From: Candidatus Magasanikbacteria bacterium GW2011_GWC2_37_14
GTDB lineage: Bacteria; Patescibacteriota; Patescibacteriia; Magasanikbacterales; UBA922
DNA: 43,515 bases
Reading direction: 5' to 3'
NCBI GenBank assembly: GCA_000990355.1
Contig: LBSX01000001.1
Coordinates: 67,392-110,906 of the forward strand
Shown: positions 36,878 to 43,359 of the stretch, piece by piece
Layout: each line of letters starts with the position of its first letter
How positions within the stretch are numbered: position 1 is the first letter of the stretch
Position numbers and translations under genes: made by a program
The notes under the pieces: model-generated
What the model was told of the DNA's origin: nothing
Database searches by the model: none
Seen by the model: only the letters and a program-made list of their open reading frames with translations

Positions 36878-38611
36878 TTATAAAATAAATCTCTTATCAA
36901 AATATTCATCTGTAATAATTTTGTAATTATGCTCTTCATTGGTTTTAATTACTTCTTCCAATTCCTTTTTAATTTTTTCCAAAACAGAAATACTATTTTT
37001 TTTATTTTCTAAATAAGAAAAATTATCTTTTTTATCAAAAAATAATACTTTTTTAAGCTGTTCCGTGGCTTCTTGTTTTGTAATACCTAAATAAGTACTT
37101 ATAATATCGGCACTTTGTTTTACATTATTATTTATAATTTCCTTAACCTCAAAAAGTACTTCTGTTATTTTTTTAATTTCACTTTCTTTGTCTTCCAAAA
37201 ATTCTTTTGAGCCTACCAGTACGTCTACTATAACGGACTCTTTTTCTGTGGAAGCTAGGATGTGAGCTGGGGAAAGTTTTATTACTCGTGACAACCACGG
37301 TTCCCACATTACCGCGCCATCTATTTTGTTCTGTAACATCAACATTCCACCATCACTTTCATCTAAGTTAACTAATTCAACATCTTTTAAATCAATATTA
37401 TTTTTATTTAACAAATATTCTAAAAAAGTTTGATTAACCCAATTTTTTTCTACACCTATTCTTTTACCCACTAGATTTTTAATATTTTTAATATCGTTTC
37501 TCACAACAAGAGCATCGCCACCATTGGAACGATTCAATAGACTAATTATTTTTAATTGATCATTTTTTTGTCTGTCTAGAAGAAATCTATCAAATGTCGT
37601 ATCCAACAAATCAACATCACCATTATTAAGGGCTTTACTCCGGTCATCGTTTTTTTCTATCTGCACCAGAGTAATGTCTAATCCCTTTTTCTTAAAAAGA
37701 TTTAGTTCTTTGGCTATGTAAAAAGGCGCCACGCCTATCCAAGTAAAAACACCTATTTTTATTGACTTTGGATTTAAGTCGGCAATTCTAATCTGAGAAG
37801 CTTTAATAACCTCTCTCTCCGTAGCAAAATTTAAAAATTTTTCCAATCTTATAAATTCTTCAGTAAATTTAATTTCCGGCCGACGTGGACGAGGCAAATC
37901 CACCTTAACCATTGCTTTCACTTCGGCTGGCCGAGCACTTAAAACATAAATTTTATCGGCAATAAATAAAGCTTCTTGTATATCGTGAGTAATCAAAACT
38001 ATAGTTTTTTTATGTTCCTCCCAAATATCTAAAACCAACATATGCATCAATTCCTTGGTTTGTTCGTCTAGACCAACAAAAGGTTCATCCATAAGTATGA
38101 GAGGAGCTTCCGAAACCATTGTACGAGCCAAGGAAACTCTCTGTTGCATTCCTCCAGAAACCTGTGAAGGAAAATATTCACCATAATCTGCCAAACCAAC
38201 TCTTTTTAGTGCTTCGCTAGTTTTTTTTTCAATTTCTTTTTTATCCTTTATTTTCCAATTGCCATGTTCAAGTGGAAATTTAATATTATCTTTTAGATTC
38301 AACCAATTATAACAAGAGCTACGTTGAAAAACCGTGACTGAATATTTATTTTTGCCTTTTAATACCTGATTTCTAATTTTTATACAACCACTAGTGGGTA
38401 ACAAAAAACCACTTAAAATATTTAAAATAGTAGATTTACCACAACCAGAAGGGCCAAGAAGAGCAATAATCTCATTTTCATGTACATCAAAACTAACATC
38501 CTTAATTATTTCAACCTTTTGGTAACTTTTATTAAGATGTTTTACCTCCAAAAGCACTTTGTTTTCACAATCAACAGAACCTGCTATTTTATTATTCTTG
38601 GCTCTCGCCAT
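36878..38611 (-). CDS. ABC transporter ATPase fused to a substrate-binding domain (NrtC-like)
   Basis: A 577-aa fusion. Residues about 20-260 are a NitT/TauT-type ATPase: Walker A GPSGCGKST (53-61), signature SGGMQQRVSLART (152-164), Walker B LILMDEPFVGLD (171-182), switch LITHD. Residues about 283-577 are an NMT1/SsuA-like solute-binding domain (IKIGVFTWIGVAPFYIAKELNLFKKKG... MWEPWL). There is no signal or helix between, so the binding domain should be cytoplasmic. The cyanobacterial nitrate ATPase NrtC has the same order, where the extra domain is regulatory. The domain here shows similarity in layout to the separate SBP encoded upstream, suggesting duplication. Confidence 0.88.
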   Translation of the reverse strand: MARAKNNKIAGSVDCENKVLLEVKHLNKSYQKVEIIKDVSFDVHENEIIALLGPSGCGKSTILNILSGFLLPTSGCIKIRNQVLKGKNKYSVTVFQRSSCYNWLNLKDNIKFPLEHGNWKIKDKKEIEKKTSEALKRVGLADYGEYFPSQVSGGMQQRVSLARTMVSEAPLILMDEPFVGLDEQTKELMHMLVLDIWEEHKKTIVLITHDIQEALFIADKIYVLSARPAEVKAMVKVDLPRPRRPEIKFTEEFIRLEKFLNFATEREVIKASQIRIADLNPKSIKIGVFTWIGVAPFYIAKELNLFKKKGLDITLVQIEKNDDRSKALNNGDVDLLDTTFDRFLLDRQKNDQLKIISLLNRSNGGDALVVRNDIKNIKNLVGKRIGVEKNWVNQTFLEYLLNKNNIDLKDVELVNLDESDGGMLMLQNKIDGAVMWEPWLSRVIKLSPAHILASTEKESVIVDVLVGSKEFLEDKESEIKKITEVLFEVKEIINNNVKQSADIISTYLGITKQEATEQLKKVLFFDKKDNFSYLENKKNSISVLEKIKKELEEVIKTNEEHNYKIITDEYFDKRFIL

Positions 38612-39806: not shown

Positions 39807-40207
39807 ATTTACCTACATTATTTACTTTTAAATAACAAAGGGAATTGTGCCGGCGACTGCTTGGAAAAGCAGTGCCGGCTAAGGAGCGGGGCGGCCGAAG
39901 AGAAATGCGACGTAGTGGGATCGTCGTTGAGTACAAGCTGGTACGACCGATCGTCGCAACTGCTTGTTATGCCCTATCGTTATCTCGTAGAGAAACATCA
40001 GTAGGGCAAGCCCGACGCCACCGAACAGGGCGAATAGAATGTGCTGGACTGGGTCCACTAGTCGTCCTCCTCGGACTTTCGTCCGGTCAAGCGACCGATG
40101 GTCCTCAAGGCGAGGATCGCCAAGCCCAGGAACTGCCAGGCGGCCCGGCGACGCAACGTAGCCTCGAACGGATGTGCCAAGATTTCCCCCTTGGGAAAAA
40201 GTCATTG
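39807..40207 (-). ncRNA. Large GC-rich structured RNA gene, unidentified
   Basis: About 400 nt transcribed from the promoter at 40214-40242 to the terminator at 39775. Its GC content is far above the surrounding DNA. Stems on the minus strand: TTTCCC/GGGGGAAA near the 5' end, GGCGA/TCGCC, CGGTC/GACCG, CGGAC-GAAA-GTCCG (GNRA loop), GGGC/GCCC, GTAC/GTAC and a 13-pair GCCGGC...ACTGCTT/AAGCAGT...GCCGGC hairpin at the 3' end. The first and last segments (AAGGGGGAA and TTCCCTTT) can close the molecule. Size and closed ends would suit an RNase P or tmRNA, but I find neither the GAGGAAAGTCC/ACAGAA motifs nor a T arm or tag. A 117-codon frame crosses it but has unnatural codon use. Confidence 0.72.
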
Positions 40208-40213
40208 GGCTAT

Positions 40214-40242
40214 AGTTTATACTAAAAAACATAATTTGTCAA
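40214..40242 (-). promoter_or_regulatory. Promoter of the minus-strand ncRNA
   Basis: Minus strand TTGACA (40237-40242), 17-bp spacer, TAAACT (40214-40219). Consensus -35 box and perfect spacing, directly after the leuS terminator. Confidence 0.87.
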
Positions 40243-40314: not shown

Positions 40315-43300
40315 TTAGATTACAATACTCAACAACTTTCCTTTTATATAAATTATTTTCTTTGGTTCTTTATCTTCTAACCATTTTTTAATTTTTTCCA
40401 ATTCTAATGCTTGTTTTATAACTTCCTCTTCTAAAATGTCTGCTGGTAATTCTAAAGTATCACGTAATTTCCCGTTAATTTGTATTGCCAAAGTAAAAGT
40501 ATCTGACTTAGCAAGTTCTGGATCATATTTTGGCCACTCGGATTTTGAGATTGATTCTTTATTCCCTAATTTGTTCCATATTTCTTCACAAAGATGCGGG
40601 GCAAACGGGGATAATAATTGCAGACATAAGCCATAAGACTTAAGACTTAAGACTTCCAACTTGGACATTTCATTTACCAAAATCATCAATTGCGAAATAG
40701 CTGTATTAAAACGCATTGCTTCAATATCCTCAGTAACTTTTTTGATTGTTTGATGTAAAAGTGTAGTTAATTTGTCATTGCGAGGAAGCCGATTCGCATC
40801 GGCTGACGTGGCAATCCCCTGGGATTGCTTCGCTCCGCTCGCAATGACACGTTCCTGCAACGTCCAAACCTTTTCCAAAAATCTTCGTACACCCACAACT
40901 CCATTTGTATCCCACGCCACAGCCTGGTCAAATGGCCCCATAAACATAATATAGGTACGAAAAGCATCTGTACCAAATTTTTCTACCATTTCATCTGGGT
41001 TAATTACATTGCCCCGACTCTTGCTCATTTTTTCACCATCAGCCGCCAAAATCATGCCATGAGAAGTGCGTTTTTTATATGGTTCGCTCGTTGGTACAAC
41101 TCCAATATCATATAAAAATTGATTCCAAAATCTGGAATATAATAAATGCAAAACTGTATGTTCCATTCCCCCATTGTACCAATTCACAGGATTCCAATAA
41201 TCCATTTTTTTTCTATCCCAAACATATTCACCATTTTTTTCTTTCATCATGGTGTAAGCTAAGAAATACCAAGAACTACCAGCCCAATTTGGCATAGTAT
41301 CGGTTTCCCGTCTTGCGGGCGAACCGCAAGCCGGGCAGGCTACGTTTATCCAATCGGTTATATGCGCCAAAGGAGATTCGCCGGTGTCGGTTGGTTCATA
41401 TTTTTCTACTTTTGGAAGTTCTAAAGGTAGTTCTGATTCGGGAAGTGAAATCCAGCCATTGTTTTCTAGTTGTTTCAAAACTTCAGGCTCTTCTTTGGCA
41501 CGGAAATGTGTTTCAATTGGGTTGGCAATAATCAGTTTACCATTAAACAAATCAGCCATTTCTCTATCTTGCCCTTTATTAATTACTCCGTAGCTTGAAT
41601 CAGCTAAAATAATAAATTCATCACTTAATTTTTTTAATTTTTTAAAATCAAATTTCCAATCACAACTTTTTTCCACATCAGGCCTTGGACGATCAACAAA
41701 CTCTGGACGTATAAAACAATCTACAAATACTACTTTGGCAACTTTTTTATTTATTTTTTCTAGTAATTTCATAACCACAGCCCCACCCATACTATGTCCA
41801 ACCAAAACAATATTCTCGTCAATTTTAACTTTGTCTAAAAGAAAATCAACTTGTTCATTAACATTTGGAGTTTTGTAATTTGGTAAATCCAAAGCATCAA
41901 CTGTATGGCCTTGTTTTTCTAATTCATTCTTGGCCCACATTAACCAAGCAAAATTAGTTGGATCATAATATCCATGTACAAGTACGTAATGATATTTTTT
42001 ATTTTTACAATTCTCACAATAAACCAATGGAATTGGTTCGCCCCAATAACGCTGGCGAGAAAACACCCAATCGCGAAGTTTATAATTGACTGCTCGCTTA
42101 CCTAAGTTATTATTTACAATATATTCTATAACATCTTGTCTCACTTCATTCCACTTTCGTCCTTTAAAATCAATTGGTTCTTCTAAAACTCCGTCTGGTT
42201 CACGATAAAATATTTCTGTACCACGCACTTTTTCTGCTAATTCTTTATTCTTTGGAAACAAAACCGGATGCAAAGGTAAATTATACATTTTAGCAAACTT
42301 ATAATCACGTTCATCATGAACTGAACAACCAACAATGCCAGTGCCGTAATCCATAAGGGCAAAACTTGCGACCCAAATTGGTAAATCGCGACCAATACCT
42401 AAATAATTTTCTGAATAACGGCCAGTAAAAATGCCTTCCATATCACTATCTATATCAAACTTATCACCAGCTTTTTTCTTTTTAATTTTTTCCACAAATT
42501 CCATTACCTTTTTTTCATGTTCAGTACCTCTCACCATTTCATAAACATAAGGATGTTCTGGAGCAATAATCACAAAAGTCTGAGCCAAAAAAGTTTGTGG
42601 AATTGAATCATAAACTTCAAACTCCAAATTCATGTCTTTAACTCTGTGTTTAAAATTAATACCTTCGGAACGTCCAATCCAATTCTGTTGTTGAATCTTG
42701 GCTTGGGGAATGTAATCTACATTTTCTAAACCTTGCAATAATTTATCCGCGTATTTTGTAATGGCAAGCATCCATTGTTCTTTATTTCTTTTTTCTGCGA
42801 CTGTACCACAACGTTCACACTTACCATCTACCACTTCTTCATTGGCCAAACCAATTTTACATGAGGGGCACCAATTTATGGGCATGGCTTTTTTGTAAGC
42901 AAGCCCGTGTTTAAATAATTGCAAAAATATCCACTGGGTCCATTTGTAATATTTTGGATCAGTCGTATCCACTACTCTATCCCAAGCAAAACTATAACCA
43001 AGCATTTTTAATTGACGAGTAAAATTAGAAATATTCTCGGCTGTAACTTCGGCTGGTTGACGCCCAGTTTTAATAGCAAAATTTTCTGTAGGTAGTCCAA
43101 AGGCATCAAAACCAATGGGAAACAAAACATTTTTTCCTTCCATTCTTTTTTTACGACAAATGACATCCATGGCAGTAAAAGGACGTGGATGGCCAACATG
43201 AAGGCCGGCCCCAGAGGGATAAGGAAATTCTATTAAACCATAAAACTTTTCCCTGCCCTGAGTTTTTACTGAAGGGTCTTCTGTAACTTCAAAAAGTTTA

Positions 43301-43359
43301 TTGTCTTCCCAATATTTTTGCCATTTTGGCTCAATTTCATTTGGAGCGTATTTATTCAT
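40315..43359 (-). CDS. leuS: Leucyl-tRNA synthetase with inserted alpha/beta-hydrolase domain
   Basis: A 1014-aa class I synthetase charging tRNA-Leu; usual length is about 800-870. HIGH-type HVGH at 54-57 (YPSGAGLHVGH), zinc CPSC and CERCG (164-184), editing domain about 228-430 with APEHP and HDERD, and KMSKS at 777-781; anticodon and C-terminal domains follow. Right after zinc cysteines C448 and C451 a complete serine hydrolase of the RBBP9/YdeN type is inserted (about 456-635): LVHGYYDPTNFAW, GHSMGG (nucleophile S523) and ETHF (H618). LeuRS resumes at LPESELPLELPKVEKYEPTDTGESPLAHI and C675-C678. Residues 838-863 (ASGAKQSQGIATSADANRLP) come from a dispersed repeat. In the editing site the TTRPDT motif reads DSIPQT. 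Confidence 0.95.
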   Translation of the reverse strand: MNKYAPNEIEPKWQKYWEDNKLFEVTEDPSVKTQGREKFYGLIEFPYPSGAGLHVGHPRPFTAMDVICRKKRMEGKNVLFPIGFDAFGLPTENFAIKTGRQPAEVTAENISNFTRQLKMLGYSFAWDRVVDTTDPKYYKWTQWIFLQLFKHGLAYKKAMPINWCPSCKIGLANEEVVDGKCERCGTVAEKRNKEQWMLAITKYADKLLQGLENVDYIPQAKIQQQNWIGRSEGINFKHRVKDMNLEFEVYDSIPQTFLAQTFVIIAPEHPYVYEMVRGTEHEKKVMEFVEKIKKKKAGDKFDIDSDMEGIFTGRYSENYLGIGRDLPIWVASFALMDYGTGIVGCSVHDERDYKFAKMYNLPLHPVLFPKNKELAEKVRGTEIFYREPDGVLEEPIDFKGRKWNEVRQDVIEYIVNNNLGKRAVNYKLRDWVFSRQRYWGEPIPLVYCENCKNKKYHYVLVHGYYDPTNFAWLMWAKNELEKQGHTVDALDLPNYKTPNVNEQVDFLLDKVKIDENIVLVGHSMGGAVVMKLLEKINKKVAKVVFVDCFIRPEFVDRPRPDVEKSCDWKFDFKKLKKLSDEFIILADSSYGVINKGQDREMADLFNGKLIIANPIETHFRAKEEPEVLKQLENNGWISLPESELPLELPKVEKYEPTDTGESPLAHITDWINVACPACGSPARRETDTMPNWAGSSWYFLAYTMMKEKNGEYVWDRKKMDYWNPVNWYNGGMEHTVLHLLYSRFWNQFLYDIGVVPTSEPYKKRTSHGMILAADGEKMSKSRGNVINPDEMVEKFGTDAFRTYIMFMGPFDQAVAWDTNGVVGVRRFLEKVWTLQERVIASGAKQSQGIATSADANRLPRNDKLTTLLHQTIKKVTEDIEAMRFNTAISQLMILVNEMSKLEVLSLKSYGLCLQLLSPFAPHLCEEIWNKLGNKESISKSEWPKYDPELAKSDTFTLAIQINGKLRDTLELPADILEEEVIKQALELEKIKKWLEDKEPKKIIYIKGKLLSIVI
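40622..40660. repeat. AAGACTTAAGACTT short tandem repeat inside leuS
   Basis: ATAAGCCATAAGACTTAAGACTTAAGACTT: units of about 10 bp, encoding LEVLSLKSYGLCL before SPFAPHLCEE. Related to the tandem repeat at 13205-13272. Confidence 0.6.
40771..40850. repeat. TGTCATTGCGAG-type repeat inside leuS
   Basis: TGTCATTGCGAGG at one end and GCTCGCAATGACA at the other are inverted; inside lie GCCGATTCGCATCGGC and GCAATCCCCTGGGATTGC palindromes. It encodes ASGAKQSQGIATSADANRLPRND in frame. Same family as 2175-2213. Confidence 0.9.
41455..41994 (-). other. Region of leuS encoding the inserted RBBP9/YdeN-like hydrolase
   Basis: Codons about 456-635 of leuS. HG near the first strand, nucleophile elbow GHSMGG, VVFVDCFIRPEF, a possible acid residue in ILADSSYG, and the His in ETHF followed by EEPEVLKQLENN, the standard order of RBBP9/YdeN serine hydrolases. 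Confidence 0.85.

Follow-up and report, generated by a model that had tools for sequence, protein, structure and literature searches.

The leucyl-tRNA synthetase (LeuRS) encoded in the window, a stretch of 43,515 nucleotides of contig LBSX01000001.1 from Candidatus Magasanikbacteria bacterium GW2011_GWC2_37_14, contains an α/β-hydrolase of the RBBP9/YdeN type inserted into its second zinc domain (Zn2). On balance, we consider it probable that a whole serine hydrolase was captured in the Zn2 loop, has long been resident in LeuRS, has moved as a cassette and is kept as a working, tethered hydrolase with Asp587 as its acid. The source bacterium is ultra-small, and LeuRS, which loads leucine onto tRNA, is essential.

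Host gene and position of the insert

The leuS gene is a single open frame of 1014 codons without interruption, as the initial annotation had read it. Its product scores 896.6 bits against the leuS_bact model (TIGR00396; curated cut-off 548.4), which identifies it as a bacterial LeuRS. The TIGR00396 alignment is split in two stretches, the best of which stops at aa 453. The features of the gene are as follows.

40315..43359, minus strand: leuS, leucyl-tRNA synthetase with inserted hydrolase, 1014 aa (frame, leuS_bact model, Pfam, motifs)
43189-43200, minus strand: HVGH (HIGH motif), aa 54 (motif read)
42592..42609, minus strand: degenerate CP1 editing motif DSIPQT (for TTRPDT), aa 251-256 (motif comparison)
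42304..42318, minus strand: conserved CP1 editing motif HDERD (motif comparison)
42007..42018, minus strand: first CxxC (CENC) of the second zinc ribbon, C448 and C451; the insert begins directly after it
41458..42006, minus strand: inserted RBBP9/YdeN-type α/β-hydrolase, aa 452-634 (Pfam, PDB sequence search, fold, HMM, 1h3n alignment)
41791..41793, minus strand: Ser523, nucleophile position (GHSMG; GHSMGG is aa 521-526) (alignment)
41599..41601, minus strand: Asp587, candidate relocated acid (RBBP9 position 135) (alignment)
41590..41592, minus strand: Tyr590, canonical acid position (RBBP9 Asp138) (alignment)
41506..41508, minus strand: His618, catalytic His position (ETHF is aa 616-619) (alignment)
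41326..41337, minus strand: second CxxC (CPAC) of the second zinc ribbon, C675/C678, invariant in five aligned LeuRS
41017-41031, minus strand: KMSKS, aa 777 (motif read)

Aligned to Thermus thermophilus LeuRS (1h3n), aa 451 of the window protein corresponds to residue 442 and aa 635 to residue 443, leaving the 183 residues of aa 452-634 wholly extra. An HMM built from 18 insert-less relatives gives the same boundaries, and in related LeuRS without the insert the CxxC is followed at this place by a loop of at most about 15 residues. Both alignments bear out the extra domain of roughly 180 residues that the initial annotation had recognized after C448/C451, and GHSMGG with S523, ETHF with H618 and the two cysteines are all found where it had placed them. 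Its coordinates for the insert, 41455-41994, had the place right but not the extent, which is 41458-42006 and slightly longer at the 5' side.

In the naming used for Neisseria gonorrhoeae LeuRS, Zn2 is the zinc domain after the editing domain, and the zinc knuckle that reaches the active site sits on the CP1 hairpin (PMC9424281). The insert lies in the former: C448/C451 are upstream and C675/C678 downstream of it in the chain, so that the ribbon is split by the insert. The first zinc ribbon, read from the translation, is C164/C167/C181/C184. We take the active-site knuckle on the CP1 hairpin, here C164-C184, to be ZN-1; the earlier assignment of the insertion site to ZN-1 is thus replaced by Zn2. 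With the bacterial enzymes (LeuRS-B; T. thermophilus 1h3n, E. coli 4aq7) the window LeuRS shares the full catalytic core, CP1, both zinc ribbons, and the anticodon and C-terminal domains. It differs from them in its degenerate CP1 threonine motif and in the 183-aa insert, which occurs in no solved LeuRS.

Several other features were observed in and around leuS. A dispersed repeat at 40765-40860, with 13 matches in the genome, is translated in frame inside the gene (VIASGAKQSQGIATSADANRLPRNDK), and similar translated repeats (VIPAKAGIQ...) border the inserts of some relatives. Between leuS and the ABC genes is a GC-rich block of about 380 bases (39845-40225), which has no Rfam match and was found in 0/38 relatives. 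At 36878-38611, an ABC ATPase and an NMT1/THI5-like binding domain are fused in one chain.

Fold family and catalytic residues

The RBBP9/YdeN identity first suggested from motif order was upheld by a domain search, in which the insert matches Abhydrolase_1 (1.5e-11), Abhydrolase_6 (8.2e-10) and Ser_hydrolase (1.5e-8). The last match (PF06821) scores 35.1 bits against a cut-off of 22, with an alignment limited to the N-terminal half. A PDB sequence search with the insert finds YdeN at 1.5e-8. The AlphaFold2 model of the insert alone (pLDDT 78.5, pTM 0.80) is closest in fold to RBBP9 (Z 20.4) and YdeN (Z 19.7), the next entry having a Z of 15.2, which agrees with the fold proposed at the outset. 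The model is of low confidence from about residue 165 of 193, a stretch that includes His618. A model of the full-length LeuRS, for which the input alignment had five rows, reached a pLDDT of only 50.5 and was set aside as poor.

The insert shares its fold, its GxSxG and HF motifs, and its length with RBBP9 and Bacillus subtilis YdeN (PF06821). It differs in that those proteins are free-standing whereas the window hydrolase is nested in LeuRS, in that their acid is at position 138 whereas that of the window hydrolase is apparently at 135, and in that the LeuRS inserts do not conserve Glu108, which belongs to the amine pocket of RBBP9.

Serine occupies the nucleophile column in all hydrolases aligned: 34/34 at the Zn2 site, 32/32 at the aa 240 site, 3/3 at the aa 373 site and 24/24 free-standing. 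The histidine is kept in every hydrolase whose extracted insert extends to the His618 column. The acid behaves differently. Asp at position 138 is present in 24/24 free hydrolases and 28/31 members of the aa-240-site clade but in 0/18 members of the window clade; at position 135 the corresponding counts are 0/24, 26/31 and 18/18. Fixation of a second Asp alongside loss of the original is not what decay of the domain would be expected to produce, and we therefore infer that the acid moved from 138 to 135 in the window clade, with Asp587 as the candidate acid.

Inserts across related LeuRS

LeuRS genes and their inserts were extracted from 59 near relatives and from class-wide and phylum-wide samples. 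The LeuRS of related candidate-phyla bacteria contain 128 distinct inserts (at least 50 residues) at five main sites: aa 240 (CP1 entry), aa 277, aa 373 (late CP1), aa 451 (Zn2) and about aa 723. A further two, including one from a split gene, were assigned to the C-terminal end. Of the 132 LeuRS detected in the class sample, 46 have open frames longer than 920 aa; among the long LeuRS fetched, those of G224 and G470 are without an insert, and G298 was outside the fetched set.

By profile and motif, about 70 of the inserts are hydrolases, comprising 34 at aa 451, 32 at aa 240, 3 at aa 373 and 1 in a split gene. The hydrolase alignment and trees exclude four Nudix inserts that were counted as hydrolase in the search profile. 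Identical architecture with the same junction recurs in dozens of separate genomes. The survey of candidate-phyla LeuRS that the initial annotation had proposed therefore did recover the same insertion site. Its statement that no standard LeuRS is known to have such an architecture holds for the solved structures, but the architecture is no one-off, being present in many related LeuRS, mostly at two sites. The absence of inserts outside candidate-phyla bacteria is judged from solved LeuRS and the NCBIfam model.

About 40 inserts, mostly at aa 373, are Nudix domains by profile and motif; of the 39 single Nudix inserts, 34 have an intact strict Nudix box. Pfam matches of representative inserts include NUDIX (1.6e-16 and 9.2e-20), Ham1p_like (4.7e-10), HAD_2 (1.5e-10) and a methyltransferase (2.3e-6); matches to a nucleotidyltransferase (9.1e-5) and ASCH (0.0011) are at or below the Pfam curated cut-offs. 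Four inserts (HAM1-like, Nudix, hydrolase, NTase-like) are combined in a single LeuRS of about 1558 aa, L146 (G456 C1:72500-77700).

Some records stand apart. A metagenome-assembled genome labelled as a Diapherotrites archaeon (L117, JABHJM010000072.1) encodes a LeuRS of bacterial type that contains both a hydrolase and a Nudix insert, through either transfer or a binning error. An open frame of 24995 aa surrounds the LeuRS of G377:C14 (L091), reflecting masking or a stop-free strand. The match in L119 (Clostridia) was rejected as due to chance.

Inserts in ValRS and IleRS

Long forms of ValRS and IleRS are also present in the same class. Their inserts lie in the zinc loop after a GHxIPVWYC-like motif, the loop equivalent to that in LeuRS, and the enzyme is another one: a histidine phosphatase profile matches 16/20 long ValRS fetched and 14/15 IleRS inserts but 0/128 LeuRS inserts (one such insert matches His_Phos_1 in Pfam at 2.6e-32). 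The hydrolase and Nudix profiles have no match in the ValRS or IleRS inserts sampled. Enzyme type and host synthetase are thus matched, in a small sample of related genes that are not independent. The histidine phosphatase carriers are L181-L183, L185-L196 and L198 (ValRS) and L208-L216, L218-L220 and L223 (IleRS). ASCH-like stretches were seen by eye in L183, L189 and L197. The ValRS matches of G235, G447, G450 and G477 contain in-frame stops, mostly TGA, which may reflect frameshift, decay or recoding.

Descent and selection

In the hydrolase tree, 49 rows including that of the window form a clade composed of LeuRS inserts only (bootstrap 100, SH-aLRT 99); outside it are another 20 LeuRS inserts, which make up a second set, and the free-standing genes. 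Within the 49-row clade, the starred branches cannot be reconciled with fewer than two switches between the aa 240 and Zn2 sites. The groups in this tree were named after a first tree was seen, and two long rows were excluded. When 380 genomes were searched with the hydrolase, the closest matches were all in LeuRS-length frames, with free-standing genes appearing from 8.8e-20. The AU test does not reject a single capture common to both hydrolase lineages (p-AU 0.54), and so we do not claim two separate ones. On the host LeuRS tree the presence of the hydrolase switches many times; therefore, the hydrolase is dispensable.

In the pair G018/G035, identity is 81.4% for the insert and 77.7/79.7% for the host. 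For G046/G048, the values are 73.2% and 76.7%, with a dN/dS of about 0.12; dN/dS is given only for pairs with unsaturated dS. These sequence comparisons show purifying selection on the insert in two close pairs, about as strong as on LeuRS itself. Between G000 and G029, the insert is 53.8% identical and the host 91.4/78.3%, with a dN/dS near 0.4. The G000 insert has a higher identity with the G007 insert (58.2%) than with that of the sister G029, whereas for the LeuRS portion preceding it the values are 64.3% with G007 and 91.4% with G029. We read this pattern as pointing to exchange of cassettes among LeuRS genes; alternatively, rapid evolution alone may account for the divergence of the G000 insert. 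Descent within LeuRS only could likewise be the plain result of recombination between LeuRS genes.

CP1 editing site

The CP1 threonine motif is degenerate in the window and in G029, G042 and G024 (DSIPQT, DSVPQS or DSVPQT for TTRPDT), and all four genomes carry a Zn2 hydrolase, that of G024 on another contig. The LeuRS of G028, which is without an insert, has a CP1 motif that is degenerate in another way, so the hydrolase is present in 4/5 degenerate-motif LeuRS. Most hydrolase-bearing LeuRS keep TTRPDT and HDERD intact, and no general link between the hydrolase and loss of the CP1 motif was found among the sampled LeuRS; a hydrolase that replaces CP1 would be expected wherever the motif is lost and nowhere that it is kept. 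Judged from its motif, editing by the window LeuRS is in doubt.

Discussion

In the mechanism that we propose, an RBBP9/YdeN-type serine hydrolase would have taken the place of the short Zn2 loop (at most about 15 residues), and a single chain would form LeuRS and, suspended from its Zn2 knuckle, a second enzyme. This hydrolase lineage would be a long-standing resident of LeuRS in candidate-phyla bacteria; the cassette may have spread among LeuRS genes and would have moved between two LeuRS loops. Catalysis would proceed via Ser523-His618 with Asp587 as the shifted acid, acting on probable substrates such as small aminoacyl esters, thioesters or amides (aminoacyl-tRNA, thiolactone, N-terminal residues), and tethering to LeuRS might be of benefit. 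In human RBBP9, the S75Dap variant, with Dap at the nucleophile, traps a single Leu/Ile, Met, Phe, Tyr or Trp in cells; the wild-type protein is an aromatic aminopeptidase, and according to the authors its substrates may be amides, esters or thioesters (PMC8866121). Because RBBP9 chemistry takes single aminoacyl residues, an aminoacyl-directed hydrolase beside LeuRS would be a reasonable expectation.

Sequence comparison establishes the architecture, the fold family, the LeuRS-only clade, the change of site and the fixed Ser, His and Asp135. The most likely reading of the insert is an active hydrolase in a tether to LeuRS, because the Ser and His are invariant, Asp587 is fixed throughout the window clade (18/18) and selection is seen in two pairs. 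We rank this reading first, a passenger second and proofreading third because most hydrolase-bearing LeuRS have an intact CP1, Glu108 is not kept and unrelated enzymes occupy the same loops. A generic passenger would serve unrelated housekeeping, the loops tolerating compact domains and an essential, steadily made host giving expression and stability. Such a passenger would account for the unrelated enzyme types in the same few loops (hydrolase, Nudix, HAM1, HAD, histidine phosphatase), for a LeuRS with as many as four inserts (L146, 1558 aa), for the frequent gain and loss of the hydrolase on the host tree and for another enzyme at the equivalent loop of IleRS and ValRS. However, it is hard to square with the sharp host preference in our sample (histidine phosphatase in 14/15 IleRS, 16/20 ValRS and 0/128 LeuRS), with the absence of hydrolase and Nudix from the IleRS and ValRS sampled, and with a hydrolase that switched loop while its host was unchanged, and we regard it as rather unlikely, if still worth serious attention.

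Proofreading in cis, put forward in the initial annotation, would have the hydrolase deacylate mischarged tRNA(Leu) or destroy the misactivated amino acid, adding to or replacing CP1. The suitability of RBBP9 chemistry for hydrophobic aminoacyl groups and the degenerate CP1 motif of the window and its nearest kin, all four with a Zn2 hydrolase, speak for this activity. Yet TTRPDT and HDERD are intact in most hydrolase-bearing LeuRS, the degenerate G028 LeuRS is without an insert, the site is Zn2 rather than the ZN-1 knuckle at the active site, and the inserts do not conserve Glu108, which binds the amine in RBBP9; with unrelated enzymes in the same loops as well, we judge the proposal improbable, if chemically plausible. 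We give equally little credence to a broader reading, in which the class I synthetases would have gained a fresh set of inserted catalytic modules, sharply matched to their hosts (serine hydrolase and Nudix in LeuRS, histidine phosphatase in IleRS and ValRS), that process products or by-products of the host reaction, the window-lineage hydrolase having taken over aminoacyl quality control as CP1 decayed. A non-catalytic, decaying structural insert or a chimeric metagenome assembly seems most improbable of all, even though the canonical acid is lost in the window hydrolase, the named records are metagenome assemblies and the G000 insert diverges fast from that of G029: the same architecture and junction are found in dozens of separate genomes. 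The purifying selection in two pairs and the fixed Ser, His and relocated Asp135 also disfavour the mere structural tolerance that had been offered as an alternative to an active enzyme.

Few enzymes are as highly conserved as the aminoacyl-tRNA synthetases, whose insertion modules are generally taken to be of ancient date. It is known that class I synthetases grew by insertion modules and that the CP1 editing domain occurs at two host positions, between CP2 and Z3 or in the zinc finger (PMC10810186). CP1 is likewise a hydrolytic domain in the catalytic core at two host positions (PMC10810186). It is ancient and near-universal in Leu/Ile/ValRS, whereas the sampled inserts are unrelated enzymes of patchy occurrence in some candidate-phyla lineages. 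The NCBIfam entry NF040702 (ileS_w_GNAT), compared by family entry only, is also a synthetase with an extra enzyme domain and a recognised exception family, but it joins IleRS to an acetyltransferase rather than LeuRS to a hydrolase. Neither the hydrolase nor Nudix is mentioned in the AARS Online paper, and a search of the open-licence literature on candidate-phyla synthetase inserts, their hosts and RBBP9 yielded no description. We could not find an account of the repeated plugging of small enzymes into a few spots of LeuRS, IleRS and ValRS.

Whole enzymes are apparently still being inserted, swapped and moved in synthetases, with their catalytic residues kept. Should the tethered enzymes act on products of the synthetases, translational quality control would have a further, new layer in a very large and mostly uncultured bacterial group; as passengers, they would represent an unusual way for tiny genomes to carry enzymes in essential genes. 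On either reading, one-name annotation would hide extra enzymes in many long LeuRS, IleRS and ValRS genes.
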